The notes under the pieces: model-generated
What the model was told of the DNA's origin: nothing
What the model saw: the letters and a program-made list of their open reading frames with translations, nothing else
Databases searched by the model: none
Program-made: the position numbers and the translations under genes
Part shown: positions 40,942-57,436 of the stretch, in pieces
Layout: each line of letters begins with the position of its first letter
How positions within the stretch are numbered: position 1 is the stretch's first letter
Assembly (NCBI RefSeq): GCF_004698125.1
Contig: NZ_SRHV01000005.1
Location: 372,001-436,000, forward strand
Source: Halosimplex halophilum
GTDB taxonomy: Archaea; Halobacteriota; Halobacteria; Halobacteriales; Haloarculaceae
Direction: 5' to 3'
DNA: 64,000 nt

Positions 40942-41928
40942 GTGGCGACCATCCCGAAGGCGAAACCAGAGCAGGAGGGTTTGCAGGAGGAAGTCGAACT
41001 CTCCGTCGTCCTGCCGGTGTACAACGAGGAGGGCAACCTCCGGCCGCTCGCCGAGGAGATCCGCGAAGTCGCCGATGAGCACTACGAACGCTGGGAAGTC
41101 ATCTTCGTCGACGACGGGTCCCGTGACGGGAGCTTCGAGACGCTCGAATCGCTTCACGGGGCAGACCCACGCTTCAAGGCCCTGAAGTTCCGGAAGAACT
41201 TCGGTCAGAGCCCCGCGATCGATGCGGGCCTCGATTTCGCCGCCGGGGAGATTATCGTGACGATGGACGCCGACGGGCAGAACGACCCCGCCGATATCCC
41301 GAAGCTCATCGACAAACTCGAAGAGGGATACGACTGCGTGTCCGGCTGGCGCCGCGACCGTGACGACCCGTTCACCAAGCGGTTCTTCTCGCGGCTTGCA
41401 TCCGGGATGCGGCAGATGTTTCTCGGGACGGATTTGCATGACTACGGCTGTACGCTGAAAGCGTTTCGCCGTCCCGCCGCGAAGGATATCGACCTCGACG
41501 GCGAAATGCACCGATACATCCCAGCGCTGCTGAGCTGGCACGGGTATCGGATCGCGGAAGTCGAGGTCAACCACCGTCCCCGACGTAACGGGGAAACGAA
41601 GTACTCCTGGCAGCGGCTCCCGAAGGGCTTTCTCGATCTAGTGAACGTCTGGTTCTGGCAGAAGTTCTCCGGGCGCCCCCTGCACATCTTCGGTGGCCTG
41701 GGTGTGCTGTCGATGTTCATCGGGACACTCGGCGGAATATATACTATCTGGCTGAAGCTCGCTGCCGGCGCGAATCTTTCCGATACTGCGTTACCGCTGT
41801 TTTCCGTCTTCATGATTATGATCGGCGTGCAGTTCTTCATTTCGGGTATCCTGGCCGATATCGGGATCAAGGGTTACCAGCACGCCAAGAATGAAGAGCC
41901 GTATCGAATCCAAGAGGTATATAAGTAG
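40942..41928 (+). CDS. Polyprenyl-phosphate glycosyltransferase (GtrB/DPM1-like GT2)
   Basis: A 328-residue protein starting at GTG. The GT-A domain has SVVLPVYNEEGNL, IFVDDGSRDGS and the metal site TMDADGQNDP (Asp109, Asp111). YGCTLKAFRR and RPRRNGETKYSW are typical of GtrB-type enzymes that load a sugar on undecaprenyl or dolichyl phosphate. Two membrane helices follow (about 250-275 and 285-310). It is the last GC-rich gene before base composition drops sharply. It could supply the donor for the GT-C enzymes. Confidence 0.87.
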   Translation: MATIPKAKPEQEGLQEEVELSVVLPVYNEEGNLRPLAEEIREVADEHYERWEVIFVDDGSRDGSFETLESLHGADPRFKALKFRKNFGQSPAIDAGLDFAAGEIIVTMDADGQNDPADIPKLIDKLEEGYDCVSGWRRDRDDPFTKRFFSRLASGMRQMFLGTDLHDYGCTLKAFRRPAAKDIDLDGEMHRYIPALLSWHGYRIAEVEVNHRPRRNGETKYSWQRLPKGFLDLVNVWFWQKFSGRPLHIFGGLGVLSMFIGTLGGIYTIWLKLAAGANLSDTALPLFSVFMIMIGVQFFISGILADIGIKGYQHAKNEEPYRIQEVYK

Positions 41929-42087
41929 TTGCTCTTGGTCTAAGCATATGGGTTTACCGGACTCATCCGTTGTCCTAAATTACTTAAGTCGATCCGCGGA
42001 TTTGGGACGTATGAGTCTTGATATTCGAATCCCGTTTCCGGAGAGTGGTTTAAGTTGCGAGACGAATATAACAAACGAGAATTAATA

Positions 42088-42900
42088 ATGGGAACAGACG
42101 CTATAAATCAAACACTTGGCCTCGCTCAGAAACTAAACATCTTCGGAGATGAAAGTTGGCAGGAGCGCTTGGTGAGTCCTCTCTTCGATACAGAGACCAG
42201 AACTGAGATCAAACTAGAGCTACTGTTTGAGGGCATTGACTTCACTGATCAAACTGTCCTCGATGTCGGTGCTGGTAACGGAATATATAGTCTCTTTGCC
42301 GTGTGTGCCGGGGCTGACCGCATCGTTGCATTAGAGCCGGCTGGAGATGGCAGCAATGGCATTAATGTTAACGGCGTTCGTACCGTTGCAGAATCCGTTG
42401 AAACAATCGAAGTGGTCTCCGAACCGCTCCAGAATTTCAAATCAAACGAACAATTTGATATCGTTATAATGCGAAATGTCATTAATCATCTTGATGAGGA
42501 CGCAACTCGGGACCTCCTAACTGACCCAACTGCGCACCAGCGATACCAAGATATTTTTGGACACCTCGGGGATTTGACCGCCGACGACGCGACAATAGTG
42601 ATAACGGACTCTTCACGCAACAATTATCTCCGATTTCTCGGTGAGCGGAATCCATTTATTGGTTCTCGTGATTGGCCTATTCATCAAGCGCCCGAGGTCT
42701 GGGCTACACTGCTTTCCCATCAAGGGTTTGCCGTTAGAGATATCCGTTGGCGATCAACGCTCTCACTACTTGGTCCGGTAGGGAAGAGATTATTTAGTAA
42801 CCGATTAGTATCCCATCTCACGAGTAGTAACTTCATTCTTATAATGGATCGTATGCGTTCAGATGACCGAATGATAGGGGAGAGTTCCCCAGACGAATGA
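42088..42900 (+). CDS. SAM-dependent methyltransferase
   Basis: A 270-residue class I methyltransferase. VLDVGAGNGIYSLFA binds SAM, with VALEPAG as the acidic loop, and IVIMRNVINHL follows as motif IV. The C-terminal part is less conserved and would hold the substrate. It begins the AT-rich island; ATG42088 is preferred over an upstream TTG. In this context O-methylation of a sugar is likely, but small-molecule or lipid targets are possible. Confidence 0.78.
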   Translation: MGTDAINQTLGLAQKLNIFGDESWQERLVSPLFDTETRTEIKLELLFEGIDFTDQTVLDVGAGNGIYSLFAVCAGADRIVALEPAGDGSNGINVNGVRTVAESVETIEVVSEPLQNFKSNEQFDIVIMRNVINHLDEDATRDLLTDPTAHQRYQDIFGHLGDLTADDATIVITDSSRNNYLRFLGERNPFIGSRDWPIHQAPEVWATLLSHQGFAVRDIRWRSTLSLLGPVGKRLFSNRLVSHLTSSNFILIMDRMRSDDRMIGESSPDE

Positions 42901-42935
42901 TTCAAATACCTCAGGTGATTCGCCGCAAGTGAAAT

Positions 42936-44030
42936 ATGAGGGTCTGTTTCCTCTCTCCGAAGGCCTATCCCCAGTTTGATGATTCTGTGGAGGGGACTCC
43001 CGGAGGGGCAGAAGTTCAGATGGTGCATCTCGGACGCCGTCTCGCACAGCGTGAGAGTGTTGATGTGCACTTTGTTGTCGCCGATTACGGACAGCCTTCG
43101 ACCGTGGTTCAAGATGGAGTCACGATACATCGATCATATTCATTTGACGACCCGCTCTGGATGAAGATCGCAAAATTTGGCAGGAAGCACGTCCGTGCTG
43201 ATGCCGACGTGTATATTCAACGAACACTTTCTCCCTTCTCAGCACCCCTAGCCGCTCTTACGCGTCTTCGCGGCCGGCGATATGTGTATATGGTCTCTCA
43301 CGATCACGAAGCAGATGGCACTCATGACCTGTTCTGTTCTCCCTTTACACGACCTCTTGCTAAGGGGGTTTATGAGCTTTCTAACCTGGTAATCACTCAG
43401 AATCGCTACCAAGAGCGTATGGTGGAAGAGAAATTTGATCTGCACAATACACGGTTGCTTCGCAGCGGGGTGAAATTAAAAAACACAGAACCCGCAAAGG
43501 AATTAAAATACGATGCCATTTGGGTGGGCCGATGTATCGAACGGAAACAACCTGACGTGATGTTAGACATTGTTGAACAGAATCCCGATTGGGATGCTGT
43601 CATGATTGCACCTCAAGCAACTGGTGAGCGCTCATATTTTGAGAAGATTCGATCTAGAGCTGAAGCTATCAATAACATTGAGTTTGTCTCGTTAGTCCCC
43701 AATGATAGGGTAATTGAGTATCTCGAACAGTCCGCTGTGTTCTGCCTTACATCACGTCACGAGGGTTACCCGATGGTCCTCATTGAGGCCGCCGCCGCAC
43801 GAACACCGATCGTCTCACTTTCACTCAACTATCCGCTCCCGTTCAACGACTATCATGCCGGAATCCATTGTGGGGGTGAGATTGATACATTTATCACTGA
43901 AGTCCAGCGACTTTTGTCTGAGAAGTCGAAATTAAACGAGTATGCGGATAATGCGAGGAGATACGCTGAGAATGAACACGATATCGAAAAAAAAGCGGAT
44001 GAATTCTATCGGATGATCGACCCTAATTGA
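42936..44030 (+). CDS. GT4-family glycosyltransferase
   Basis: A 364-residue GT-B enzyme with FLSPKAYPQFD, a TPGGAEVQMVHLG acceptor loop, IWVGRCIERKQPD and SRHEGYPMVLIEAAA. It is a diverged relative of the GC-rich gene at 967: both have the GGA(E/Q) loop, a DYGQP/DFGQP segment and similar length. The composition here is AT-rich, so it is not a recent local copy. It starts 35 nt after the methyltransferase gene. Confidence 0.85.
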   Translation: MRVCFLSPKAYPQFDDSVEGTPGGAEVQMVHLGRRLAQRESVDVHFVVADYGQPSTVVQDGVTIHRSYSFDDPLWMKIAKFGRKHVRADADVYIQRTLSPFSAPLAALTRLRGRRYVYMVSHDHEADGTHDLFCSPFTRPLAKGVYELSNLVITQNRYQERMVEEKFDLHNTRLLRSGVKLKNTEPAKELKYDAIWVGRCIERKQPDVMLDIVEQNPDWDAVMIAPQATGERSYFEKIRSRAEAINNIEFVSLVPNDRVIEYLEQSAVFCLTSRHEGYPMVLIEAAAARTPIVSLSLNYPLPFNDYHAGIHCGGEIDTFITEVQRLLSEKSKLNEYADNARRYAENEHDIEKKADEFYRMIDPN

Positions 44031-44131
44031 GAGTATGTATTGTAATCATCACAGGGCTCAAAATACTATGGAAGCCACTAGCCCATAGAAGGGTATATGA
44101 GCACGCGGCTAAATGGATGGAACAGTCAGAT

Positions 44132-45283
44132 ATGCGCGTCTTAATTCTAAACTATGAATTTCCGCCTTTGGGCGGAGGGTATGGAGAATATCATCTGCTC
44201 GCACGTGAGCTAGCAAAGCAGGGTCATGAGGTCCTCTACGTAACGTCCCGTATGAGTGGACAACCAAAGAGTGAGGTGGTTGACGGTATTTCCATTCTCC
44301 GAGTACCGACGATCCGGCGGCATCGAAAGAGTGCGACCGTGTTTGAAATGTTTACGTATATTTCCTCAACAGCTATTAAATTACCAAGTATCACGAGTGA
44401 ATTTGAGCCGGATGTCTGTCATATATTCTTCGGGATCCCTACAGGCGCCTTGATTTTCCATCCTATGTTACGTAACACCCCGACGGTTCTGACGTGTCTT
44501 GGGTCTGACGTACCTCACCACAACCCGGACCGGTTTAACCTCCTGTATTCAATTTTGACGCCGGGAGTTACTCGGATCTGGGATCGGCACGATGCTGTCG
44601 TTGCAAATAGTTCCGGTCTTAAAGACGAAATACAGGATATTAATCCAGATCAACAGGTTCGAGTAATTAATAACGGGATCGATACAGAGCAGTTTCATCC
44701 GGTCTATGAGGGCGAGGAGGGAATTATCCGGTTCCTGTATGTTGGCCGTCTTATTGAATTAAAACGTATTGATGTGGCTATTAAACTTCTATCCAAACTT
44801 AATGATCTTATCAATAAGCGGGTGACACTTGATATTGTAGGCGAAGGTGAACAAAAACTAGAATTAAAACAATTCACAAGGGAGGAAGGCATGTCCGATT
44901 GTGTAAAATTCCACGATTACATACCTCACGATCGGATCCACACTATGTATCAAAAATGCGATTTTTACATTCAGTTATCTGAAGCTGAAGGTATGCCCAA
45001 TACAATAATGGAGGCTATGGCATGTGGGGCCATACCCGTGGTGACTCCAGTCGGGGGAACTGAAGAGCTGCTTGGTGATGATATCGGAATTTTTGTTCCT
45101 TTCGGATCAGAAGACAATGCGGTAAATCAATTGGTAGATATGGTCCAAGATGATTCAACAGTCAGGGATCAAAAAGAGGCTGCTCGTGAAAGAATAGTAA
45201 ACGAATTTGGGAGAAAAAAATTTGCGTCAAAATATCATTCACTATACAAGGAAGTGATCGATCAATATGCGAACGACAACTGA
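44132..45283 (+). CDS. GT4-family glycosyltransferase
   Basis: A 383-residue GT-B enzyme. ATG44132 (MRVLILNYEFPPLGGGYGEY) is used because the conserved first strand begins there; an in-frame upstream extension would overlap the previous gene. VINNGIDTEQF, FLYVGRLIELKRID and LSEAEGMPNTIMEAMACGA are the donor-side motifs. A TATATGA box lies at about 44094-44100, about 32 nt before the start. It is convergent with the next gene. Confidence 0.86.
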   Translation: MRVLILNYEFPPLGGGYGEYHLLARELAKQGHEVLYVTSRMSGQPKSEVVDGISILRVPTIRRHRKSATVFEMFTYISSTAIKLPSITSEFEPDVCHIFFGIPTGALIFHPMLRNTPTVLTCLGSDVPHHNPDRFNLLYSILTPGVTRIWDRHDAVVANSSGLKDEIQDINPDQQVRVINNGIDTEQFHPVYEGEEGIIRFLYVGRLIELKRIDVAIKLLSKLNDLINKRVTLDIVGEGEQKLELKQFTREEGMSDCVKFHDYIPHDRIHTMYQKCDFYIQLSEAEGMPNTIMEAMACGAIPVVTPVGGTEELLGDDIGIFVPFGSEDNAVNQLVDMVQDDSTVRDQKEAARERIVNEFGRKKFASKYHSLYKEVIDQYANDN

Positions 45284-45320
45284 TTTAGTATGGGGTTCAG
45301 TAGTCCAATTTCGAACACCT

Positions 45321-46505
45321 TCATTGGGTGGTCTGTTCTAGTAGTGAGAGTAACTCGGTAGCGAGAGCCTTAACGCTGTATTCTGAACGTTTTGCGTCGT
45401 CACCAAGACTTTCCGGTCGCATATTATACAGGGATTCCAAGGTGTGGGTGATGTCACTGACATCGGATCGGTGACAGAGTCTAGCCCCTGGAAAGTCTTC
45501 GAGAAGCGACGATATTGCCCCGTCTTCCGAATCAATAGCCAATACTGGGAGATCGCAGGCGAAGTAATCGAATACTTTGATAGGAATGTGGGTCCGATCT
45601 TCAGGTCTTGTCAAGACGAGTCCGATGTTAGCCGCATTTAATTCACGGATTATCTGGTGTTTTGCCGCGTAACCATTAAATTCAACTTTGTCGCTAATCC
45701 CAAGTTGGGATGTGAGATCTTTTACGCGTTCACGGTGGCTATCAGCCTTCCCATAATGTATCAATTTAACATCTGGTTTATTGGCAGCAAATTTAGCGAA
45801 TCCCTCAAAAAAAGGCTCAACGTCGTTACGGAACTTCCCAGGATAAATGATCCGAAACCCATCGGCTTCAACTACATTTCCATGGTAGTCTTCCGGATCA
45901 AAACCGTTTGTCAACGTCTTGAACTCTGTTTGTATCTCTGGGAAGGAGGATTCATACGCACATCTAAGATTTGATGATGACACCGTCACCGCATCCGCAG
46001 CTCTAAGGATACGTGGCTCACAGTGGCGTGATAAGGCTGCCCACCCGCGATCCAATAGAGACTTAGATGACTGTCGTTGTTCGTAATATTGAGAAAGCGT
46101 CCATGGATCGCGAAAATCAACAATATATGGAACTTCGACAAAACTCTTCACAAGTGGGACATTAAGAAGAGGAAGAAATGGCCACGCTGTATGAAAAATT
46201 GCATCAATATTATTTTTATGAACGATCCTTGTAATTGCCGGTGTTAATTTTGGCGTCCAGCGGAACCCATCTTTTTCACCCAGGGAAAGCCAGTCAAGAA
46301 TGATTCCCGTTCGGTGGATCTCCTCAGCAGTCTCAAGTACGGCCGCATATTCCTCATTGTCGGGTCCAGGTTGATACTGTCTTTCAACTGTTAAGACATG
46401 AACTTCGGCACCAAGACGGGAAAGGTACTTTGTGAATTTTGCCGCTCGAAACATCGTCACACCGCCCCCTGGTGGGAACGAATACGAAACTACTAATATT
46501 CTCAT
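45321..46505 (-). CDS. GT4-like glycosyltransferase
   Basis: A 394-residue protein. It starts MRILVVSYSFPPGGGVTMFR and includes VDFRDPWTLSQYY, a hallmark of the GT4-like subgroup with a DFRDPW loop. LTNGFDPEDY lies at the hinge and RTHIPIKVFDYFACDLPVL at the donor site, where the first acid of the usual EX7E pair is replaced. It is divergent from the flippase gene across a 156-bp gap. Acceptor and donor unknown. Confidence 0.82.
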   Translation of the reverse strand: MRILVVSYSFPPGGGVTMFRAAKFTKYLSRLGAEVHVLTVERQYQPGPDNEEYAAVLETAEEIHRTGIILDWLSLGEKDGFRWTPKLTPAITRIVHKNNIDAIFHTAWPFLPLLNVPLVKSFVEVPYIVDFRDPWTLSQYYEQRQSSKSLLDRGWAALSRHCEPRILRAADAVTVSSSNLRCAYESSFPEIQTEFKTLTNGFDPEDYHGNVVEADGFRIIYPGKFRNDVEPFFEGFAKFAANKPDVKLIHYGKADSHRERVKDLTSQLGISDKVEFNGYAAKHQIIRELNAANIGLVLTRPEDRTHIPIKVFDYFACDLPVLAIDSEDGAISSLLEDFPGARLCHRSDVSDITHTLESLYNMRPESLGDDAKRSEYSVKALATELLSLLEQTTQ

Positions 46506-46661
46506 TTAGGTACGTGAGTCGAGGATGGTTGATCTCGGGTTGCTATTTGGTAGTACATCCAAACGATTCTTTCATTGTTGCTTTTACCGTTCAATTGTAT
46601 CAGTTGCATCCCAGTATTGGGTTTGGGAGAATGAGTGTAACGATCCTCAGAGGGAATTTGA

Positions 46662-48125
46662 ATGACCTCGATATCGCGCGTCGTCAAAGGATTTCAAACT
46701 GAACTGGTCGCAAAGGGGGCAGCTATCGTTTCCGGGTTGATCGTCATGGTCTTGTTGGCACGACTTCTTGGCCCAAACAAACTGGGTCAGTTATTCTACG
46801 TTCTTTCAATCTTATCAATTGCACATCTCTTATCAAATCTTGGTTTTCCTCAGTCCGGAGCTCGGTATGTTGCAGAGTTTCTCGAGGAGAACCCATCGAA
46901 AGTTAGACTAGCGATCCGCGTCTCCTTAGGGTATCTTCTATTGAGTAGTCTTCTGGTTGTACTTGTTTTATTCCTTGGCTCTGGAGTATTAGAATCCGTC
47001 TTGGGGGAATCGAACATTCAAAAACTGCTGATGGTCGGTGCAGCATACGTATTCTTCCGCTCGTTACGGTACTATATTAGGCGAATCTTGCAGGCATTTG
47101 GTGCGGTTCCTTGGGCGTCAGCGATGGTGGTCGTCACAGAAGTCGCTAACTTGATATTTATTTTTGGTTTAGTCAGCCTTGGACTTGGAGCAATTGGGGC
47201 CATCGCTGGATACACGCTCGCGTATTGTCTATCATTCTTTCTCGGAGCGGCCGTGTTTTACACACAATTTTATCGATCTTTACCGACTGACTCGTCTTTC
47301 GACATAAATTTAGCCGGGGAAATCTTAAAATACAATTTTAGTCTTGCACTTACCAGTGGTGCGAATGCCATCGAAAAAGAAACAGACACAGTACTGATTG
47401 GATTCTTTCTCGGCCCATCAATGGTTGGTTTTTACGCACTCGGCAAACGAATCGCAAATCGTGCTCGTGCACCTGCAGAGGCCCTTGGCTTTACGCTTGC
47501 ACCGATGTATACGGAGGCAAAACTCTCAGAAGGTAGCACTGAGGCCGGTCACATTTACCGACAAGCTCTTGTAAACATTCTAGTTCTGTATGTTCCGGCC
47601 GTGGTGGGTCTAGTTCTTGTAGCTCGACCGGTAGTCAAGTATATCTTCGGTTCGGAGTTTCTTCCAGCTGTTCCGGTAATCCGGTTATTAGCTCTCCTTA
47701 CACTTTTTCAGAGTATCGGTTACATCACCGGAAACGGACTCGATTATCTTGGGCGAGCTAAGGATCGAGCGAAAATTAAGGGGGTCTCGGCTGTTCTCAA
47801 CCTTATATTGAATCTATTTTTGATACCTGTTTGGGGAATAATAGGCGCTGCATTTGCGACCATCGTTACTAATGGAATTTATAACCTAACTAATGTATAC
47901 TTTATGCATCAGGAGACTGATTTCTGGCGTCATGGTGTCATCTGGGCTTGTTCGAAAATTCTTCTAGTCACGGTCGTGATGGCGGCTCCCGTTTATGTTC
48001 TTGTGCCCCATATCAGAGGGGTATTCAGTCTTGTTCTTGTCATATTTATTGGAATCGCTATCTGGATAGTGGGGTCTTTCGCTCTCAGTCTGATAACAAT
48101 ATCTGATATTAGAAGGGTTATATGA
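46662..48125 (+). CDS. Polysaccharide flippase (Wzx/MATE-like)
   Basis: A 487-residue protein with about 14 membrane helices. It has LLARLLGPNKLGQLFYVLSI near the start and the LNLFLIPVWGIIGAAFAT segment in the second half, both family marks. This is the third flippase in the window and the only one in the AT-rich island, so it probably exports the island-specific glycan. No clear TATA box is seen in the 156-bp upstream gap. Confidence 0.88.
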   Translation: MTSISRVVKGFQTELVAKGAAIVSGLIVMVLLARLLGPNKLGQLFYVLSILSIAHLLSNLGFPQSGARYVAEFLEENPSKVRLAIRVSLGYLLLSSLLVVLVLFLGSGVLESVLGESNIQKLLMVGAAYVFFRSLRYYIRRILQAFGAVPWASAMVVVTEVANLIFIFGLVSLGLGAIGAIAGYTLAYCLSFFLGAAVFYTQFYRSLPTDSSFDINLAGEILKYNFSLALTSGANAIEKETDTVLIGFFLGPSMVGFYALGKRIANRARAPAEALGFTLAPMYTEAKLSEGSTEAGHIYRQALVNILVLYVPAVVGLVLVARPVVKYIFGSEFLPAVPVIRLLALLTLFQSIGYITGNGLDYLGRAKDRAKIKGVSAVLNLILNLFLIPVWGIIGAAFATIVTNGIYNLTNVYFMHQETDFWRHGVIWACSKILLVTVVMAAPVYVLVPHIRGVFSLVLVIFIGIAIWIVGSFALSLITISDIRRVI

Positions 48126-48295
48126 TCATACGTAATAGCGTGTTAAATCTCTCAGGAATAGTATAAGTAATAATATGTGTTGTGACAGTAGACAACCGAG
48201 TGGCTCTGTACTCGTTACTATCCACAGCTCTGTTATAGATACGATCTGTATTCAAAATATCCCCTTCTTAGAGCGAAGGATACTCGTCCGACACC

Positions 48296-48304
48296 TATAT
48301 AAAT
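48296..48304 (+). promoter_or_regulatory. TATA box upstream of the island GT-C gene
   Basis: TATATAAAT lies 36 nt before ATG48341, so a short leader of about 10 nt is expected. The remaining 48,126-48,295 is AT-rich and shows no ORF. Confidence 0.5.
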
Positions 48305-48340
48305 ACGAACTCCACTACTCCCACTAACCTGTCTCAACTA

Positions 48341-50389
48341 ATGTTTAAGCTAGCTTGGGGTCAAAGGGTCCTTAGCGAGAGGCGTAGTACATTTATTAAG
48401 GGAAGCACCCTCACCGCGGTACTATTTGCGTTCTTTCACTTATTGGTTGTTTTTCAATTCCTACCTTCAATGTTTCCGACTGCAACGAGCGAGTTTTTCC
48501 TTCTATCAGTGGCCGTTGTGATGTTATCCACGTATTTAGACATCTATATTAACGGCGTCTCTTCCTCTGTATTAATGTTCGCCCGGTTGTTTGTTGTTCT
48601 TTCACTGTCTTTATTTGCGGTTTCGTATCTTATACCTGTCGTTAGCGGTGGTGATCCATGGATTGATCCTCGTACAATTTGGATTCTCATCGCAGCTGGC
48701 GGCTGTCTTGCTTACTGGAGCAGTGTGGAATCACAGTCAGATGCTCTCAACTACAAATATCAACATCCACAGGTAGCCAAGGTACATTCTAAGGTACAAA
48801 CCCTTTATACACCTGATAACCGTCTCTGGACGGGCTTACTTCTGCTTGTATTCTTTCTTGGGTCGTTTCTCCGCTTCTATAATCTCGGATATCTCAGTCT
48901 GACCAGCGATGAAATATATCTTGGAATGTCGATAAAAGCTATTGGAGAACATTGGCTACCAATTTATCCAGATGGCACGTTATATGACCGGGGGCTAGTA
49001 CACGTCTATTTAGGATGGATTGTCACGCAGATCATCGGCCACGGTGAGACTGCAGTGAGATTCCCGAGTGCTCTCGCAAGCTCATTAACCATTCCGCTGC
49101 TTTACTTCATAGCCCGTGATTTTAGCGGTGACAAACGAATTGGAATCGTTGCTGCCGCAACGTGGGCGCTCTTCCCGTGGGGGATCGAATTTGCAAGATG
49201 GGGACGTGATTATGCCTTGGTATCATTCCTGTTTATTGCTACTTTCTATACAACGTACTTGGGGTTCAGTAACCGGCGCATAGACTATCTCGGTTTTGCT
49301 GTAGGATTCTGTATACTCTCTGTCGTAAATTCCATTATTGGATTTATATCCATCGGTGTCATTGGTTTAGGATTCGTGATCTGGGGATTGAAGCGTGAGA
49401 CAATCCTGAAGCGGCGTAATATTATCGCTATCGCCATAGTTCTACTAATTATTCCCATCTATCGTGTCTTGTTCCATCTTGTAACGGGTGGTCCACTCGC
49501 TGGTATTGTAGATCATATTATCTATGCATACGTATTCTTGCTTCAGTTCAAGTTTGATCCGTATTTCCCAGCTGCGTACCATTCACACTTTACTATTGGA
49601 TCAATTCTCTTCGTCATTAGCTCACTATCTCTTCTCTGTTTTGATTCAAAAAACGTTCGCGAAAACGCTTTCCTTCTCTTCTTCAGCTACGTCCCACTCG
49701 TGTTTATGAGCTACTACAATATCCATCACCAGCCGCGTTACCTCTATTTCTTCACCCCACTTTTCATTACAATGTGCCTTGTTGGAGTTGCCGTGTTCAT
49801 TCGAGATCTCCTTAATTGGATTGACATTTCTGAGGGGACTCGCCGTCAGACAACGCTCATATTTGTGGTTATAATTGCGCTCTTTGCGTTCACTAACGTT
49901 GGTTACGCTACTGAGATTCCGACGCGGAATCACGGTGCTACCTATCAAGAACCGTTCTATTCGCCAACAACTGGACTTTCAACGTATGGGGACTCCAAGA
50001 GTCAGATGATTTATGTGGCGAATCATGCCGATCGAAATGATTCCGTCGTAACCACTGGGTTTCAGTACTATTACTACTATACTGGTGAACAACCCGACTA
50101 CTGGCTCAGACCAGGAGGTCACGCCTCATTTATTCAGGAGACCCCCAACGGAACTCGCGTCCGCTACATGACTAAGACAGGCGCAATTACATCACCCGAA
50201 AAGCTAGTCTCTGTTGCGAACCATACCAAAGGGGAAGTTTGGATCGCTTACTGGCAAGGAGAAACAAACACCGGTCCGCGAGACGAGCTGACCTATCCAG
50301 CTCATATGATGGATCGAGGTTGTGATATTGAACGCGTATACGTTGGTGACGAGGAACTGGCAACAGTGTGGCGACTCAATAGCTGCTAG
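48341..50389 (+). CDS. GT39-like membrane glycosyltransferase
   Basis: A 682-residue protein with about five extra N-terminal hydrophobic helices (to about residue 130), a hydrophilic link, then the GT-C core. In the core, LSLTSDEIYLGMSIKAIGEHW gives the acidic outer loop motif (Asp-Glu near residue 190), followed by AVRFPSALASSL. A soluble C-terminal domain follows from about 560. The extra N-terminal block is unusual for the family. It would use a lipid-phosphate sugar on the outer face. Confidence 0.75.
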   Translation: MFKLAWGQRVLSERRSTFIKGSTLTAVLFAFFHLLVVFQFLPSMFPTATSEFFLLSVAVVMLSTYLDIYINGVSSSVLMFARLFVVLSLSLFAVSYLIPVVSGGDPWIDPRTIWILIAAGGCLAYWSSVESQSDALNYKYQHPQVAKVHSKVQTLYTPDNRLWTGLLLLVFFLGSFLRFYNLGYLSLTSDEIYLGMSIKAIGEHWLPIYPDGTLYDRGLVHVYLGWIVTQIIGHGETAVRFPSALASSLTIPLLYFIARDFSGDKRIGIVAAATWALFPWGIEFARWGRDYALVSFLFIATFYTTYLGFSNRRIDYLGFAVGFCILSVVNSIIGFISIGVIGLGFVIWGLKRETILKRRNIIAIAIVLLIIPIYRVLFHLVTGGPLAGIVDHIIYAYVFLLQFKFDPYFPAAYHSHFTIGSILFVISSLSLLCFDSKNVRENAFLLFFSYVPLVFMSYYNIHHQPRYLYFFTPLFITMCLVGVAVFIRDLLNWIDISEGTRRQTTLIFVVIIALFAFTNVGYATEIPTRNHGATYQEPFYSPTTGLSTYGDSKSQMIYVANHADRNDSVVTTGFQYYYYYTGEQPDYWLRPGGHASFIQETPNGTRVRYMTKTGAITSPEKLVSVANHTKGEVWIAYWQGETNTGPRDELTYPAHMMDRGCDIERVYVGDEELATVWRLNSC

Positions 50390-50418
50390 CAAAAAGCCAA
50401 ACCAACAACTGTGTCTAG

Positions 50419-50807
50419 GGTGGTGTTTAGTTAGTGAAGTTATCCATTGAGAGGAGGCTTGGGACCAGGATTCGGCGGCGTACAGCCAGAACTGTTCGTC
50501 GTTGATCCGAATCACTGTTTCGTCGAGCGCGATCTGATTCGGTATCGACCAGATTCGGGCTGTGGATCGGCTTTCTGGACCCAGTCATGGATCGCTTTGC
50601 GACTCCGATTGCACTCAGTACTCCGAGTAATTCGGCGGTGACAAGCCCACAACGTGCGATTAAATACCTGACATCATCACCGGTCCGGATTCCGATCGTA
50701 CTTTACAAAATCCGAACCGATCCGCTCTTTATGACCGGTGAGGTGGGCGATCTCTGGCATAGGGACCAATAAATCACACCTCACTTCACGCTCAACCAAG
50801 CACGACC
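50419..50807 (-). mobile_element. Shrunken IS6-family insertion sequence remnant
   Basis: About 390 bp bounded by imperfect inverted ends: GGTGGTGTTTAGTTAGTGAAG at the left (50419-50439), and the complementary run at 50784-50807 at the right, matching with a few gaps. Between them is a broken transposase gene lacking its middle part. The element is GC-richer than the surrounding island. With its catalytic centre deleted it resembles a MITE-like derivative. Confidence 0.55.
50425..50760 (-). pseudogene. IS6-type transposase, frameshifted and internally deleted
   Basis: Reading leftward from ATG50760, MPEIAHLTGHKERIGSDFVK matches the N-terminus of haloarchaeal IS6-type transposases. After stops and frameshifts, RKAIHDWVQKADPQPESG and then IALDETVIRINDEQFWLYAA (first catalytic Asp region) follow. 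The text then jumps directly to AESWSQASSQW, which resembles the extreme C-terminus (AESWLQAF.VW), so the middle with the other catalytic acids is deleted. It is not functional. Confidence 0.75.
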
Positions 50808-50824
50808 GTGTGTCAGGAACAATA

Positions 50825-51694
50825 TTATTTATACGCTCTGATGTGGTACTTGTCCCCAGCATCATCCGCTATCTCGATCGTGAACCCACATGATTTGAGT
50901 AGTTCGTGAATCTCTGTTTCTGAACTATCGAATTTCGGTAAATGGAGGCTATGAACCTCACAGTAGACGACCCTGCAGGCATCTTGTGACAGGACCTGCT
51001 CCATGCCTCGAAGCGCTTTGAGTTCTGCACCTTCAACATCGATCTTGACGACAGTTGGTTGAGGAAGTTCCCCATTTTCAACCAGTTCATCACCGGTCTG
51101 CATCTCTACATCCCTTTGCTCAACGCTTCCTTCCCCGTAAGACTCGAGGGATTCATTCACTTCAATAAGGTTATGTCCAGGTGCTACTGTAGTCGACTCG
51201 ACCGCAATAGATAGAGTGACATCGCCAATGGTGTCCGAGAGTGCCTGCTCTTGTACGCTAGCCTCAATGTCGTTCAAGTTCAAATTGTCTCGGAGCCTAT
51301 CGGCGTTTTTTGGATGAGGTTCAAATGAGACGACATCTATGTCTGCTGAACTAGCTCCGACAAGACAGGAATACACTCCGATGTTGGCTCCCACATCAAA
51401 GAATACATCGTCATCCTGAAGATCCGAAAGCAACGAACTGAGAACATCAAATTCAGTCATCGCACGAAGTCGTTCGTACTCATCGTGATCTGCAACTATA
51501 AACTGGGTTTCAGTATCCTGGACTTCCACCTTGTATCTCCCAGCAGAAACAGCGATTGTCGCCATCACACGTTCGTAGACGCGTTTCGTCGTGTTGAAGA
51601 TTCCAACCGTTCGGAGTATCGACTGTAATGATCTGCCAATTTCACTCCGCCTGAGTGATTCGAATCTAGCCGCGAGTGTACTCAACGTGTTCAT
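50825..51694 (-). CDS. FkbM-family methyltransferase
   Basis: A 289-residue protein. VFFDVGANIGVYSCL binds SAM, SFEPHPKNADRLRDN follows, and TVVKIDVEGAELKALRGM is the FkbM signature. About 90 residues precede the domain. The family O-methylates sugars or glycolipids. Its ATG overlaps the stop of neuB by 4 nt (ATGA), so it is translated with the nonulosonate genes and probably methylates that sugar or the finished glycan. Confidence 0.85.
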   Translation of the reverse strand: MNTLSTLAARFESLRRSEIGRSLQSILRTVGIFNTTKRVYERVMATIAVSAGRYKVEVQDTETQFIVADHDEYERLRAMTEFDVLSSLLSDLQDDDVFFDVGANIGVYSCLVGASSADIDVVSFEPHPKNADRLRDNLNLNDIEASVQEQALSDTIGDVTLSIAVESTTVAPGHNLIEVNESLESYGEGSVEQRDVEMQTGDELVENGELPQPTVVKIDVEGAELKALRGMEQVLSQDACRVVYCEVHSLHLPKFDSSETEIHELLKSCGFTIEIADDAGDKYHIRAYK

Positions 51695-52707
51695 AAGCCC
51701 TGAATATCTGACTCTGTAAGTATGGTCTTTGCGGTGATATCACGAGTGGCGCATTTACCAATGACATCGTCGATCATTTTTGGGTCAAGTCCAGATTCGG
51801 GTCGGAGTGCGATGAGATTCTCCCTTTTAAACCGCTCTCCATCCGCGATACCGTTATCTACGGCGAGGCTTCGTCGCATCTGATGCCGTAGATCGTCTTC
51901 TGCATCAAGTGGGCCCTTAATCCTGTCTTCATTGCCTCTGATCGAATCAATCCATTCGGCATGTTTCACTATCTCAGACATTTCTTCTGGATTCGCAGAG
52001 AGGCGGTGATCACCGACTTTCTTCGATTTATTCAGTGTAAAATGCTTTTCGATAATTGTTGCTCCACGGGACATCGCCGCGCAGACAACATCAGGACCAA
52101 CTGTATGATCGGAGTATCCGATTGGTACGTCGAACGCATCCGAAAGCCGGTCAAGCATCTGCAGGTTCGCGTCCGTCTGGTCGGTTGGATAAGCTCCTAC
52201 ACAGTGTAGAAGGTGGAGGCGGTCATTGGGAATTTCCGTGACAGCTCGTTCGATCTCCGCCATCGATGCGAAACCGGTTGACAGAACTACTGGAACCTCA
52301 AGGTCCTTAACGTACCGAAGTAGAGGGATATTCGTCAAGTCTCCAGAAGCGATCTTGACAAACGGACTTCGGCTGGCGACGAAGTCAGCCCAGCGCTCGT
52401 TGAACACACTCCCTGCAAAGTCGATCCCAGCTGTCTCGGCTTCATTAACAAGTTGTTCCCACTCTTCAAGCGTGAATTCGAGTTCTTTAAATCGTTCATA
52501 TTGGCTATCATATTCGTCCCCGGCTAGTGGGAGTGGCGGTTCATCTTCTACGATGAGAGTTTCGGCGCTGTACAACTGGAATTTGACTGCGTGTGCACCA
52601 GCATCAGCGGCGGCGTGGATATACTTGATTGCAGTCTCAATATCGCCGCCGTGGTTACCGCCGACCTCTGCTATCACATACGGTTTGGTGGGTGGAAATT
52701 CATTCAT
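51691..52707 (-). CDS. neuB: N-acetylneuraminate/pseudaminate/legionaminate synthase (NeuB family)
   Basis: A 338-residue enzyme. The TIM-barrel part (1-260) has YVIAEVGGNHGGD, AHAVKFQLYSAETL, VVLSTGFASM, GYSDHTVG and IIEKHFTLNKS...GDHRLS, all NeuB marks; the last holds metal and substrate ligands. The last 65 residues form an SAF antifreeze-like domain (RRSLAVDNGIADGERFKREN). It condenses phosphoenolpyruvate with an N-acetyl hexosamine derivative to give a nine-carbon sialic-acid-like sugar. Which sugar cannot be read from sequence. It starts 5 nt downstream of neuA. Confidence 0.88.
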   Translation of the reverse strand: MNEFPPTKPYVIAEVGGNHGGDIETAIKYIHAAADAGAHAVKFQLYSAETLIVEDEPPLPLAGDEYDSQYERFKELEFTLEEWEQLVNEAETAGIDFAGSVFNERWADFVASRSPFVKIASGDLTNIPLLRYVKDLEVPVVLSTGFASMAEIERAVTEIPNDRLHLLHCVGAYPTDQTDANLQMLDRLSDAFDVPIGYSDHTVGPDVVCAAMSRGATIIEKHFTLNKSKKVGDHRLSANPEEMSEIVKHAEWIDSIRGNEDRIKGPLDAEDDLRHQMRRSLAVDNGIADGERFKRENLIALRPESGLDPKMIDDVIGKCATRDITAKTILTESDIQGL

Positions 52708-52712
52708 GTGTT

Positions 52713-53426
52713 CTATTTCACTTCATCTGTGAATTTAGCTATTGCTTTTGCGATCCGTAACTGGAATTCCGTATCTATTTCGATGGTCGATTCCTCACGC
52801 TGGATGATGGCACGTATGTCCGTTCCCAGCGCAAAGTCTGTTTTATCCCAGTTTAGAAGCAATTTCGGTTTTCGGGCGTAAATCGCTCCTGTAAATCCAA
52901 AGGTATCTGGTCTGTCCTGCCGCTGATTCGGTGTTTCGTCAGTGATTCCCTCGAGCGGTGCAATACGATCTCCTTCAAGACGATACGCTCGGTGGGGATG
53001 CGTATCTGTGATCCGCTCTACGGCGACTACCGAGTCACAATCAGTGTTCCTCAATTTCACTGCCGCTTTGTCAACCTGTTCAGGTGTGGTAAAAGGGCTT
53101 GTCGGCTGGAGACAATGAATCTGTGTTGGTCGACTGTTCTCTTCGATGAGATACTCGAGTGCATGCTTTACGACGGCTATTACAGGGACATCATCTTGGG
53201 AGAGGCTCGCTGGCCGAATAAATGGGACCTCTGCGCCGTATTTTTGCCCGATCTCGGCGATCTCTTCGTCATCAGTTGACAATATTACCCTATCGATCCG
53301 CTCTGCGGCTAGTGCCGTTTCGATTTGATAGCTTACGAGTGGTTGTCCATCGATTGTCCGCAGGTTTTTACGCGGGACGCCCTTCGATCCCCCTCGAGCG
53401 GGAACAACCGCGACAGTATCACTCAT
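52713..53426 (-). CDS. neuA: CMP-nonulosonate cytidylyltransferase (NeuA family)
   Basis: A 237-residue enzyme. VAVVPARGGSKGVPRKN is the CTP-binding loop, LQPTSPFTTPEQVDKA the sugar site, and FTGAIYARKP a late block. It would activate the NeuB product as a CMP sugar. ATG53426 is chosen because the CTP loop starts six residues in; it overlaps the upstream gene by 8 nt. The length is normal for the family. Confidence 0.88.
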   Translation of the reverse strand: MSDTVAVVPARGGSKGVPRKNLRTIDGQPLVSYQIETALAAERIDRVILSTDDEEIAEIGQKYGAEVPFIRPASLSQDDVPVIAVVKHALEYLIEENSRPTQIHCLQPTSPFTTPEQVDKAAVKLRNTDCDSVVAVERITDTHPHRAYRLEGDRIAPLEGITDETPNQRQDRPDTFGFTGAIYARKPKLLLNWDKTDFALGTDIRAIIQREESTIEIDTEFQLRIAKAIAKFTDEVK

Positions 53427-54870
53427 CTTTTGTTGTGAGTCCTTGATAACTGGGTCGAAGTCCGTTTGTTTCCGCATCTAATACTTTCTCACACATCTTC
53501 AGATCAAACCAAGTGTCAATGTGTATTGCGTGATGCGGTTCCATGAGAACATGTCCGACATTGTCCCCCGTAAGTTCATCACGGTTATGTACGATACTTG
53601 GTTCGAACCCGTAAATGGCTCCATTTTCTTCGTATAGCGTCTCTCGCTCCTCTCTAAGTAATCTCTCCTCAAACAGTGGTTCCAATCCATACTTACCTGG
53701 TTGCCAGAGGAACTTTCGGTTTTCTGTGACACTAATAACTGAATCTACAGAGAACATATGCCAGGTGTCAACTACCTCATCAACGTTAATGGCTGTTTTT
53801 AGGGGGGAAACGTATTGTAGAAGGACGACAAAATCGGGATCATAGCATTCTGTCGTTCGAAGTTCTGTGAGCAGGTCTGCGATAACACTACTCAACGATA
53901 CTTCAGACCCTACTAAGTTGTCTGGGCGGAGGTGTGGAACCTCAGCACCGGCTTTGCGGGCCGCAGTTGCGATCTCTTCTGACTCTGTAGAGACGACTAG
54001 TCGATCGATGCGATCTGCTTCCAGCATCTCAGTTACCGTATAGTCAAGAAGTGATTGATTGTCTACTTCCCAGAGAGCCAGCGGTGCGTCAGGAACTGAG
54101 GCGCTTTCCGGTGGTTCGATTCGTCGCTCACTCTGTGCTGGCACGACTCCAAGTACTTCCGCTTCGGCTGCTTCGTCTGCCAAATTCATGTCCACAAACT
54201 GGTCTTTAACGTTCCGTCGCGCTTCCAAACGTCCACTTAGATTCTGAGACATGCTGTCATTGTGTTGCCTATAATACATCAACGGAAGATTCACGTTACG
54301 TACGTTAAATCGGTTAACGAACCGGACCCAAAAATCATAATCTTCCTGGTAGCTGAGGGATTCGTTGTACCCACCAATAGCCTCCCACGCTTCCTTTCGA
54401 TACATGGCGCCCGCTGCTAGCGGTGCACGGTTCAGCAGTTTCACCTCATCTTGGACCTTCAGCATTCGTACGTGGTTGAGTATTTCTCCCTCGCTATCAA
54501 CAGTATAATAATCCGGGAAGACCAGATCGATCTCTGGATTTGCGTCAAGGTACGTGGATTCGACGGTGAGGATATTTTCGTCGAAAAAGTCGTCCGCGTC
54601 GAGACGTACAACATATTCTCCGTCAGCGGCTTCAATGCCGGCATTACATGCAGACGGGAGCCCCTCTCCTTCGAGACGGATAGTATGTAACCGTTCGGGA
54701 TACTCAAACTTGGCCGCTCTTAGAATCTCTGGAGTCTCATCGGTTGAACCATCATCAACGACGATTACTTCGTACTGGTCGTAAGTCTGCGTAAGCGCGC
54801 TTTCGAGGCATTCTTCTAGAAAGTGTGCATAGTTATGAGCTGTAATAATAATACTGACCTTCGGATCCAT
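53419..54870 (-). CDS. Fusion: GT2 glycosyltransferase + NeuA-like cytidylyltransferase domain
   Basis: A 483-residue two-domain protein. Residues 1-225 are a GT2/GT-A domain: SIIITAHNYAHFLEEC, VVVDDGSTDET, and metal site RLDADDFF (Asp91, Asp93). Residues about 238-470 look like the cytidylyltransferase fold of NeuA: a first loop VVPAQSERR in place of PARGGSK, then RLVVSTESEEIATAARKAGAEVPHLRP, LQYVSPLKT and ENGAIYGFEP. The Arg-Gly-Gly-Ser-Lys loop is lost, so the second domain may be inactive or use another substrate. A normal neuA follows with an 8-nt overlap. The gene could make or transfer the CMP sugar. Confidence 0.82.
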   Translation of the reverse strand: MDPKVSIIITAHNYAHFLEECLESALTQTYDQYEVIVVDDGSTDETPEILRAAKFEYPERLHTIRLEGEGLPSACNAGIEAADGEYVVRLDADDFFDENILTVESTYLDANPEIDLVFPDYYTVDSEGEILNHVRMLKVQDEVKLLNRAPLAAGAMYRKEAWEAIGGYNESLSYQEDYDFWVRFVNRFNVRNVNLPLMYYRQHNDSMSQNLSGRLEARRNVKDQFVDMNLADEAAEAEVLGVVPAQSERRIEPPESASVPDAPLALWEVDNQSLLDYTVTEMLEADRIDRLVVSTESEEIATAARKAGAEVPHLRPDNLVGSEVSLSSVIADLLTELRTTECYDPDFVVLLQYVSPLKTAINVDEVVDTWHMFSVDSVISVTENRKFLWQPGKYGLEPLFEERLLREERETLYEENGAIYGFEPSIVHNRDELTGDNVGHVLMEPHHAIHIDTWFDLKMCEKVLDAETNGLRPSYQGLTTKDE

Positions 54871-54912
54871 TTATGTCACCGTTCTCTCTGGAAAGAGAGA
54901 ATAGCGATCGGT

Positions 54913-56367
54913 TTAGGAGTTTCGTCTGCCGTTGCGAAGTGCTTCATTCGGTGGCATTGCTACCAGTCTTTCCAGTTCTTTTTTGATCGTCTTGATCGAG
55001 GATTCAGTAAAGAGATCCTCTCGCTTAATCGTGACAGATTGACTCAAAGAAATTTTGCTGGCCAAGTCTTCGGTGCTTTCTACGACAGTAGCATACCCCG
55101 ATTCGGCAAGCGGTCGCGTATATTGGATGCTAGGGAGGTTTAGTAGAAATGTCTCTAACCCGAACATCAAACCCTCGTAAAGCGCAGTTGATCCGACACC
55201 GATCTGGGTTCTTGATTCTGCGAAGAGTCGATATAGCGGGGGATCATCTGATGAAACAACATTGATATCACTGCCTACTAACCATGGATACCGAGACTGC
55301 CATCCTTCGTATTCTCTCGGATGAAGTTTGTAGATAACTCTTGAGTCAGTGTGCCTGCTTACTTCTTGAGCAACTCTTGAAAGCGGTTCACCAATTGATT
55401 GCTGAGAAATAAATAAAATCTGGTCTTTTGTATCTGTGTTCTTATATTCTTCAACTTTAGATTCAAGATATGGGTATCCACAATCAATCAATCGCTCTTC
55501 TCCAATGGGAAAATCTGCCATCTCTCTCCAAAATGGGCCAAATAGAAACAAATAATCCGGGAAGTGTCTTTTTTCCCGATCATTTGGGTAGGAGTATCCG
55601 TAGTGAAAGGGATGAATCACACCGTGCTGGAGTTCTATCACTGGGATGTCTTGGTCGTGACAAGCCTCAATGAACGTCTCTTTTCCATAACTTACCGTGA
55701 GGACCACAACACGTGGATTGATACGTTTCAACAGTCGCTTGTACAGATTGAGACGGGATGCCCGAAACGATAGCGCATCTCGGACTTCTCCAACCGCGTC
55801 AGGGCGAATGCCAGATCGGCGCTCAAAGGCCCGTTCAAAGGATTCAAGTCGGTTTAATATGTCTCTCGGGATAGTCTGAGAACTGACACCTACCTTTCGT
55901 TGAAACTCCCCGATATACTCAATGAGATCAAGATATCTGAGTCGGGGTGTTTTCGCAGGACGGCGGTGCTGTTTCTCTAACGGGGACTCCAAGTGGATGT
56001 AGTCCAGATCTGTCCCCGTATAGATTGGGTCAAAGTAAATGTCCCACCAACGGTCATCTTCAAGCTTTTTTCTCCGTTCATGACCCCATATTAGAATATC
56101 GTGCTGTGATTCGAGGAACGGATTGCGGATAACTATATTCCTCATCGCGAGCCAAAGACTGCGAAGATAATCTAACCGATTGGAATCCGATTTGGAGGTA
56201 CTGCTCGCGAACACGTCACTCTGTCGTACAACCTTCCGATGTAAGTGGAATCTCACACGTTCCCAAATTGGGACACCACAAATATTGAGATCAAAGAGGT
56301 CAAACTCTGATTCCAATTCTAGAAATGTCTCATGTAACTGCTCAAATCGGACTATGTTATCGGGCAT
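54913..56367 (-). CDS. Putative glycosyltransferase with KLHP motif (sialyl-/capsule-type)
   Basis: A 484-residue soluble protein. No standard GT4 or GT2 motif is present. IELQHGVIHPFHYGY near residue 250 and VIYKLHPREYEGW (His349-Pro350) near residue 349 are typical of capsule and polysialyl-type GT-B transferases (the 'HP' motif of bacterial sialyltransferases and related CDP-polyol transferases). STALYEGLMFG supports a donor-site loop. The first gene of the nonulosonate operon, it lies 42 nt upstream of the fusion gene. Transfer of the CMP-activated sugar is a reasonable guess; a CDP-glycerol-type transferase is the main alternative. Confidence 0.6.
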   Translation of the reverse strand: MPDNIVRFEQLHETFLELESEFDLFDLNICGVPIWERVRFHLHRKVVRQSDVFASSTSKSDSNRLDYLRSLWLAMRNIVIRNPFLESQHDILIWGHERRKKLEDDRWWDIYFDPIYTGTDLDYIHLESPLEKQHRRPAKTPRLRYLDLIEYIGEFQRKVGVSSQTIPRDILNRLESFERAFERRSGIRPDAVGEVRDALSFRASRLNLYKRLLKRINPRVVVLTVSYGKETFIEACHDQDIPVIELQHGVIHPFHYGYSYPNDREKRHFPDYLFLFGPFWREMADFPIGEERLIDCGYPYLESKVEEYKNTDTKDQILFISQQSIGEPLSRVAQEVSRHTDSRVIYKLHPREYEGWQSRYPWLVGSDINVVSSDDPPLYRLFAESRTQIGVGSTALYEGLMFGLETFLLNLPSIQYTRPLAESGYATVVESTEDLASKISLSQSVTIKREDLFTESSIKTIKKELERLVAMPPNEALRNGRRNS

Positions 56368-56558
56368 GGATGTGATCTCAGTTTATCTATAATTATCTTG
56401 TATGCCGGCACCAAAGAAACCCTTTCTTTTAGCTCTTGGCGAGACTCCCTGTTAATATATTAGTGGTTAACGCTCTACAGCTATCCACAATTCGTTATAA
56501 GTGGAGCTTCCAATTTGAGTTGGTTTAATGAGTATCTTATGTAGAGGGGACGCCCCAC

Positions 56559-56850
56559 TCACGGGTTTCTCGAACCGGTTCGCCTCCGCTCGCTTCCCGC
56601 ATCGTCGACGTGGTCAACCGTAACAGTATCCGTCCCGTTCTTCTCCGCGAGCCGTCCGGCTTCGTACAGGGTGTCGATCGCCTTCCGCGCATCGCCGTGC
56701 TCTTTCGCGGACAGCGCGGCGACTTTCGGGATGACATCTGGATCGAGCACGCCGTCCTCGAAGGCGTCCGTCCGATTTGCGAGGATCTCGCGGAGCTGGT
56801 CGGCGTCGTAGGGGTCGAATACTAGTTCGTTGTCCTGGGGACTGGAATCG
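56559..56850 (-). pseudogene. Orc1/Cdc6 replication initiator, C-terminal fragment
   Basis: The minus strand encodes DNELVFDPYDADQLREIL, then KVAALSAKEHGDARKAIDTL and DTVTVDHVDDA, the standard sensor-2/lid region of archaeal Orc1/Cdc6. The AAA+ core before it and the winged-helix domain after it are missing. The fragment is fused in frame to VirB4-like sequence, so it is a recombination remnant. Confidence 0.78.
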
Positions 56851-57436
56851 AGCCGCTCGTTCCACGCGTAGGTCCCGTACTCGATCCCGGGCTCGGCGAA
56901 CGCACCAGCCACAAAGGGAAACATCGCGCCGAGTGCACCAGCGAGCATCGGCGTCGTCGTGTCCATCGACTCGTTCAACTTGTCCACACCGACGGGACTT
57001 CCTGAGATCAGCGAGTCCAACTGCGTCCACCGCGGCACACTGGCGTCAGATTCGCGGGCGACTGCCGTGCGATACTGGATACACCATCCCCGGTGATCTC
57101 GTCCCGAGAGTTACCGTGCGTCGTCAGATACATCGACGTATCGAACGCCTGCATCGAGGTGTTCCGGAGGGTGTCGTAGAGCGCCTGGTAGTCTTCCAGA
57201 TCCTTTCGAACCCCGCGAGCGTCTGCCCGGCGCTTCTCCCAGAGGGACTCCACGTCGGCCTCCAGGTCTTCGATCGTGTTCTCGATCGTATCGAGCGTGG
57301 CACTCGTCTCCCGCGGTCTGATGTGCAGGCTGATGTCCATCGAGTGCATCTCCGCCGTCGCATAGAGCCCTTGGGAGAGAGCCGCGTCGAGAAACCGCGC
57401 GGCGATGACTCGCTTGCGGATGGGAGCCCACGTCAC
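56850..57436 (-). pseudogene. VirB4/TraC-like conjugation ATPase, fragment with frameshift
   Basis: Two overlapping leftward frames (57436-57008 and 57038-56850) together look like the middle of a haloarchaeal plasmid VirB4-like protein: DISLHIRPRE, a long charged helix (DLEADVESLWEKRR), FDTSMYLTTHG, then after a shift LNESMDTTTPMLAGALGAM and a final YGTYAWNE. The N-terminus and Walker ATPase core are absent. The family assignment rests on overall pattern and is moderate. Confidence 0.5.

Follow-up and report, generated by a model that had tools for sequence, protein, structure and literature searches.

Five genes on the minus strand form a compact cassette in the window, by which we mean the whole 64,000-nucleotide stretch of Halosimplex halophilum DNA that was analysed (Table 1). 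In the direction of transcription, they encode a protein with a KLHP motif (GTB), a fusion of a GT2 glycosyltransferase with a pseudo-CMP-synthetase (FUS), a CMP-nonulosonate synthetase (NeuA), an ulosonate synthase (NeuB), and an FkbM-family methyltransferase (FkbM). All five open reading frames (ORFs) listed in a first-pass annotation of this DNA were recovered at the same coordinates, on the same strand, and with intact frames. Both of the overlaps that it had reported could be read on the sequence: NeuB and FkbM have 4 nt (ATGA) in common, and FUS and NeuA share the 8 nt ATGAGTGA if NeuA starts at its second methionine (Met18, position 53426). The longest NeuA ORF (start at 53477) would give a FUS/NeuA overlap of 59 nt. 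NeuA and NeuB are separated by 5 nt and GTB and FUS by 42 nt.

Table 1. Coordinates in the window of the cassette genes, their domains and motifs, and features of the surrounding island
Feature	Position	Strand	Basis
GTB, 484-aa KLHP protein, candidate nonulosonate transferase	54913..56367	-	No Pfam family; weak NCBIfam BFO_1060; co-occurrence with NeuB in Halobacteria
KLHP motif of GTB, residues 347-350	55318..55329	-	Conservation in 33 homologues
FUS, GT2 - pseudo-CMP-synthetase fusion, 483 aa	53419..54870	-	Pfam, AlphaFold2, Foldseek
FUS N-terminal GT2 domain, ~residues 1-225	54196..54870	-	PF00535; 6p61 TM 0.95; DxD
FUS C-terminal CMP-synthetase-like domain, ~residues 236-470	53461..54165	-	Alignment; motif count; 6ifd TM 0.85
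NeuA, CMP-nonulosonate synthetase; probable start 53426	52713..53477	-	PF02348; P-loop RGGSKGVPRK; NCBIfam PseF
NeuB, PEP-dependent ulosonate synthase with SAF domain	51691..52707	-	PF03102; PDB relatives; separate clade
FkbM-family methyltransferase	50825..51694	-	PF05050, TIGR01444; homologue in L223 cluster
Flippase, in island	46662-48125		
PMT_2 membrane protein, in island	48341-50389		
Low-GC island with cassette, methyltransferase, GT4s, flippase, PMT_2 membrane protein	41800..56500	.	GC 46.5%

A Cdc6-type lid fragment was seen at the right edge of the island listed in Table 1. The assembly (4.47 Mb in seven contigs) is about 99.9% complete. NeuB is the sole NeuB of the genome and NeuA its sole intact CMP-sugar synthetase, and the two CTP_transf_3 proteins that the genome encodes both lie within the cassette. 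The GC content of the island is 46.5%, compared with 63 to 75% in most of the flanking DNA and 64% in the whole window, and neither FUS nor GTB was found in the other two species sampled from this genus. We take the island that carries the cassette to be foreign and horizontally acquired.

Synthase, synthetase, methyltransferase, and candidate transferase

The NeuB and NeuA motifs named in the first-pass annotation are present, and the catalytic motifs of both proteins are kept according to Pfam and alignment. NeuB matched PF03102 (E = 8e-67) and carries a SAF domain (PF08666). When NeuB was aligned to SiaC, SpsE, and PseI, residues E14, K42, K118, S121, S143, H201, H222, D233, and R302 were found to be kept; we take these to be functional residues. 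The closest PDB match was SpsE (1vli), with PseI and SiaC also related. The best NCBIfam model was TIGR03569 (NeuB_NnaB) at 281 bits (cut-off, 400), and the PseI model TIGR03586 gave 244 bits (cut-off, 340); due to both scores falling below their cut-offs, they name no product. NeuA matched CTP_transf_3 (E = 2e-24), and its best NCBIfam model was PseF (TIGR03584; 146 bits, below the cut-off of 206). The sequence family of this stand-alone NeuA includes CMP-Neu5Ac synthetases and the CMP-Kdn synthetase PpNeuA (9t4z). FkbM matched PF05050 (E = 3e-24) and TIGR01444 (101 bits; cut-off, 37.7), and a homologue with 52% identity lies within another cluster of NeuB, NeuA, and GTB genes (L223), which makes methylation of a glycan by FkbM plausible.

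GTB had no match to a Pfam family and no sequence match in the PDB, profile search included, and no homologue was found on viral contigs and plasmids. The AlphaFold model, computed from three input sequences, had a pLDDT of 40 and was discarded. Among 33 homologues, K347, H349, and P350 are invariant and L348 is nearly so. Homologues of GTB were found in 39 of 391 Halobacteria genomes (two of the 39 matches are short fragments) and NeuB in 78, and every one of the 39 genomes with GTB also had NeuB (Fisher P = 3e-32). The two genes were on the same contig in 36 genomes and no more than 10 kb apart in 32 of these 36. The NeuBs associated with GTB are of several kinds (NeuC-linked, isomerase-fused, and FUS-linked), which ties GTB to nonulosonate use in general. 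The NCBIfam model BFO_1060, presumably named for a T. forsythia locus tag, matched 10 of the 33 homologues weakly and also gave a weak hit to the GTB of the cassette.

The transferases GtfS and TFUB4_00887 of Tannerella forsythia act on NulO sugars and carry an HP motif, and their knock-outs lose Pse or Leg (PMC6388019, PMC6120980). GTB likewise has the HP motif of these proteins (∼445 aa, GT-B type), although its homology to them is very weak, and we do not equate BFO_1060 with GtfS. A transferase role for GTB fits with the motif, the Tannerella precedent, and the weak BFO_1060 matches. The KLHP transferase of the first-pass annotation is further supported by the complete co-occurrence with NeuB, and, as judged from sequence, GTB is very probably the nonulosonate transferase of the cassette.

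GT2 joined to a probably dead CMP-synthetase domain

FUS matched the GT2 family (PF00535; E = 9e-32) and retains a weak remnant of CTP_transf_3 (E = 2e-4). Its AlphaFold2 model (pLDDT, 85.7) has two domains, which were compared with known structures using Foldseek. The N-terminal domain matched the GT2 structure 6p61 (TM, 0.95) and has a GT-A fold with DDGSTD and DxD motifs; the DxD (DADD, residues 91 to 94) is intact in 25 of 25 homologues. The C-terminal domain has the CMP-Neu5Ac synthetase fold (6ifd; TM, 0.81 to 0.85). This half thus resembles the CMP-N-acetylneuraminate synthetases 6ifd and 1eyr in fold (TM, ∼0.8) but differs from them in lacking the P-loop and one metal ligand. The P-loop (R-x-x-S-K...K-N) is missing from the second domain in all 25 homologues; the partner stand-alone synthetases keep the motif in 22 of 24 cases, and a further one (L135) has RGGSK without the Pro. 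At the metal site, haloarchaeal FUS proteins have I-H-I-D, compared with I-(D/E)-I-D in NeuA, so that one Asp is replaced by His.

Hence, the proposed fusion of a GT2 with a NeuA-like protein holds as far as the folds are concerned, but the NeuA-like half is no ordinary synthetase, because none of the relatives has kept the P-loop and the haloarchaeal proteins carry His in place of one metal Asp. The family has conserved residues of its own (H440 in 20/21 and R315 in 21/21), and a conserved ERE..Y...G stretch lies in the dead domain at the region where NeuA binds sugar. These new conserved residues, H440 in particular, argue for a retained, noncatalytic role. We also considered whether FUS is a pseudogene and rejected this reading because the P-loop loss is conserved across phyla. 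We predict that the GT2 of FUS is active and that the CMP-synthetase domain joined to it is catalytically dead.

Distribution of FUS loci and precursor supply

With FUS as bait, four full-length copies were found in the 391 Halobacteria genomes: that of the cassette and three others, in G333, G372, and G026, which are 61 to 64% identical to it. Further full-length copies were found in another genome of the same phylum (G469, locus L221) and on an Azospirillum plasmid (L211). A NeuB-family gene and a cytidylyltransferase adjoin FUS in every one of these cases. With NeuB as bait in 84,980 species, we found 21 loci with FUS in about a dozen phyla (Aenigmatarchaeota, Hadarchaeota, Bacteroidota, Verrucomicrobiota, Nitrospirota, Bdellovibrionota, and others); the adjacency of FUS and NeuB is not independent of the search in these loci, whereas the matches obtained with FUS as bait are independent. 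NeuC was found in none of the 21 FUS loci and in 31 of 59 others (P = 4e-6), and SpsF was found in 14 of 21 compared with 5 of 59 (P = 5e-7), although these counts are not statistically independent of NeuB clade membership.

The comparison of NeuB clades that the first-pass annotation had suggested was carried out as a tree, in which FUS-linked NeuBs cluster apart from NeuC-linked ones, including those of haloarchaeal NeuC-NeuA-NeuB operons (SH-aLRT support, 86 to 92, from a quick search with some forks open). Since this clade is separate and its FUS-linked loci have no NeuC wherever examined, the label sialic, legionaminic, or pseudaminic acid is unproven, and an ulosonate other than these three is a live option on the basis of the sequences.

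The upstream hexosamine steps are absent from the cassette, as had been noted before. We searched the genome for precursor genes family by family, using Pfam and TIGR families, and found no hydrolysing 2-epimerase (NeuC/LegG) and no PseG; the sole Epimerase_2 protein is of the non-hydrolysing WecB type (123 bits on TIGR00236). In this search for precursor genes, which had been proposed earlier, DegT and dehydratase candidates scored below cut-offs and were unlinked. The sole strong DegT aminotransferase (425 bits) lies apart from the cassette on contig C1, adjacent to a hexapeptide acetyltransferase, and its best NCBIfam models were PseC (303 bits; cut-off, 423) and LegC (269 bits; cut-off, 420). 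About 4 kb from it is a Gfo/Idh oxidoreductase like UDP-GlcNAc 3-dehydrogenase, which points to a 3-amino sugar. Neither Epimerase_2 nor PseG was found in G026, whose cassette is of the same type. PseG is present in G333 and G372, beside a second, different NeuB (in G372, as placed by coordinates). Due to the lack of NeuC and PseG in both the genome studied here and G026, the known hydrolysing steps are missing where the cassette stands alone.

Thus, no known gene set in the genome bears out the earlier claim that the precursor must come from elsewhere, and we infer that neither NeuC nor PseG produces it. The precursor could be a common sugar, with mannose as one simple candidate that would lead to an acid like Kdn; alternatively, an unrecognised enzyme could release an aminosugar. 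Genes outside the Pfam and TIGR families searched could be the source.

Proposed pathway and alternatives

We interpret the cassette, with a probability of roughly 0.62, as an operon, gained by horizontal transfer, for the synthesis and use of an acidic 3-deoxy-2-ulosonic sugar of the nonulosonate type, all enzyme activities, the acceptor, and the methylation target being predicted. NeuB would join an aldose and PEP to form an ulosonic acid, NeuA would activate the acid with CTP, and GTB would move it from CMP to a surface glycan, the assembly of which would fall to the glycosyltransferases, the flippase, and the membrane transferase encoded nearby. FkbM might then O-methylate the acid or the adjoining sugar. 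The dead domain of FUS most likely binds the nonulosonate or serves as a docking site for the active NeuA or SpsF, a putative role in which the GT2 would work beside the supply of CMP-sugar. The first-pass annotation had described a cassette that makes, activates, transfers, and methylates a sialic-acid-like residue; synthesis, activation, and transfer are supported and methylation is plausible, but the identity of the sugar is unproven. More tentatively, and at somewhat less than even odds, we propose that GT2-pseudoNeuA is an old cross-domain family that uses a dead synthetase as a donor-binding or docking module and that, with its NeuB clade, it marks, in archaea and many bacterial phyla, an unrecognised ulosonate pathway that is independent of NeuC and PseG and might, for instance, lead from a common aldose to a Kdn-like acid.

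The acid could instead come from an ordinary pathway for legionaminic or pseudaminic acid, with the genes for its early steps dispersed over the genome (the DegT/acetyltransferase cluster on C1 and a NAD-epimerase), as in Halorubrum sp. PV6, which keeps LegH apart from its other genes (PMC6137143). This is consistent with the strong DegT match, its adjacent acetyltransferase, and its affinity to PseC and LegC; we nevertheless consider it unlikely, as all candidates score below the NCBIfam cut-offs, the nearby Gfo/Idh protein suggests a 3-amino sugar, and the hydrolysing step is missing. Neu5Ac proper, formed from ManNAc that is scavenged or supplied by the WecB-like epimerase and an unrecognised hydrolase, would agree with the presence of that epimerase, with NeuB_NnaB as the top model of NeuB, and with the NeuC-NeuA-NeuB operons known in haloarchaea. 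Yet the NeuBs of those NeuC-linked operons fall in a different clade, and G026 has the same cassette type without any Epimerase_2, and we regard this origin as improbable.

The division of labor between the two glycosyltransferases can also be drawn differently from the pathway that we favor: FUS may polymerise or modify the acceptor, its GT2 adding an NDP-sugar to a nonulosonate held by the dead domain, with GTB adding the nonulosonate. The intact DxD would fit this role, as would the ERE..Y...G stretch and His440 in the dead domain. However, a GTB homologue is detectable in just 1 of 21 FUS loci, so that FUS might be the only transferase in the others, and we hold this arrangement to be less likely than not. 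Finally, the loss of the P-loop and the metal Asp, together with the foreign origin of the island, could be taken as signs that the transferred cassette is in decay or no longer works and that the NeuA half of FUS is a pseudogene relic. We consider this very improbable, given that the same P-loop loss is found in 25 homologues from about a dozen phyla with newly conserved residues and that all five frames are intact.

Compared with Halorubrum sp. PV6, in which LegI and LegF were assayed, the cassette is similar in having NeuB and NeuA homologues in a surface-glycan gene region (PMC6137143). PV6 also has LegB, LegC, LegH, LegG, and NeuD; in contrast, none of these is in the cassette, and the genome studied here has no LegG/NeuC. 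No transferase was named in PV6, and the legionaminic acid transferase in protein glycosylation was stated to be unknown when that pathway was described (PMC6137143), whereas GTB is proposed here and offers a concrete archaeal candidate for a nonulosonate transferase. A NeuB/NeuA surface-sugar locus as such is already known, haloarchaea included (PMC6137143); what differs here is the pseudoenzyme fusion and the NeuC-free NeuB clade. In the literature searched, we found no description of a natural GT2/CMP-synthetase fusion. The fusion family may serve as a marker for one type of NeuB pathway, and it would be a case of a glycosyltransferase that has taken up a pseudoenzyme. Loci of this kind, if annotated from NeuB and NeuA only, would be labelled sialic acid loci, perhaps wrongly.

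The sps locus of Bacillus subtilis differs in having SpsM, SpsC, SpsD, and SpsG for its precursor and no described GT2-pseudoNeuA fusion (PMC7439481). It is similar in that SpsE is the best PDB relative of NeuB and in that SpsF-type cytidylyltransferases accompany FUS in bacteria. At the Cloacimonadota locus L190, NeuB, SpsF, GT2, and pseudoNeuA are all parts of one protein of 1042 residues.

Proteins fused to NeuB or recurrent beside it

Two haloarchaea encode NeuB and a xylose-isomerase-like TIM barrel (PF01261) in a single protein. NeuA adjoins this fusion in both loci (L050 and L053), and in L050 it is also immediately adjoined by GTB, the candidate nonulosonate transferase. The isomerase half may produce the substrate of NeuB; if it does, these two loci would represent a further route without an adjacent NeuC.

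The four-part protein from a Cloacimonadota locus (L190) is a Rosetta-stone fusion, and a second NeuB adjoins it. In genome G168, NeuB and GTB share a cluster with the ORF combining NeuA with a PseG-like match (L223), and the closest of the FkbM homologues is there too. A radical-SAM-like protein of ∼330 aa recurs in several clusters (L133-L136, L146, L186, and L190), where it often directly precedes a second, deep-branching NeuB and SpsF.

Coordinates of features (each locus has its own numbering)
Feature	Location	Length (aa)	Source
NeuB-PF01261	L050:8887-10779		Haloarchaeon
NeuB-PF01261	L053:9976-11865		Haloarchaeon
NeuB-SpsF-GT2-pseudoNeuA	L190:6876-10004	1042	Cloacimonadota
NeuA + PseG-like match	L223:6822-8462	546	G168
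UDP-GlcNAc-3-dehydrogenase-like gene, hexapeptide acetyltransferase, DegT aminotransferase	L023:3486-10079		Contig C1
Cdc6/Orc1 lid-domain fragment	56559-57038		Window
Arylsulfotransferase (ASST)-like protein	26670-27920		Window

Spread of NeuB, and a possible diamino-sugar pathway

Because 78 of the 391 haloarchaeal species sampled (20%) have NeuB, ulosonate genes look commoner in haloarchaea than the limited spread described earlier. The three genes found together on C1, another contig of the genome that holds the window, suggest a 2,3-diamino sugar pathway outside the window's cassette.

Other features of the window

The low-GC island is bordered on its right by the Cdc6/Orc1 fragment, perhaps a truncated replication gene that remained after the insertion. 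The ASST-like protein, encoded where the glycan region has a high GC content, has a sulfatase-family protein and a flippase nearby.
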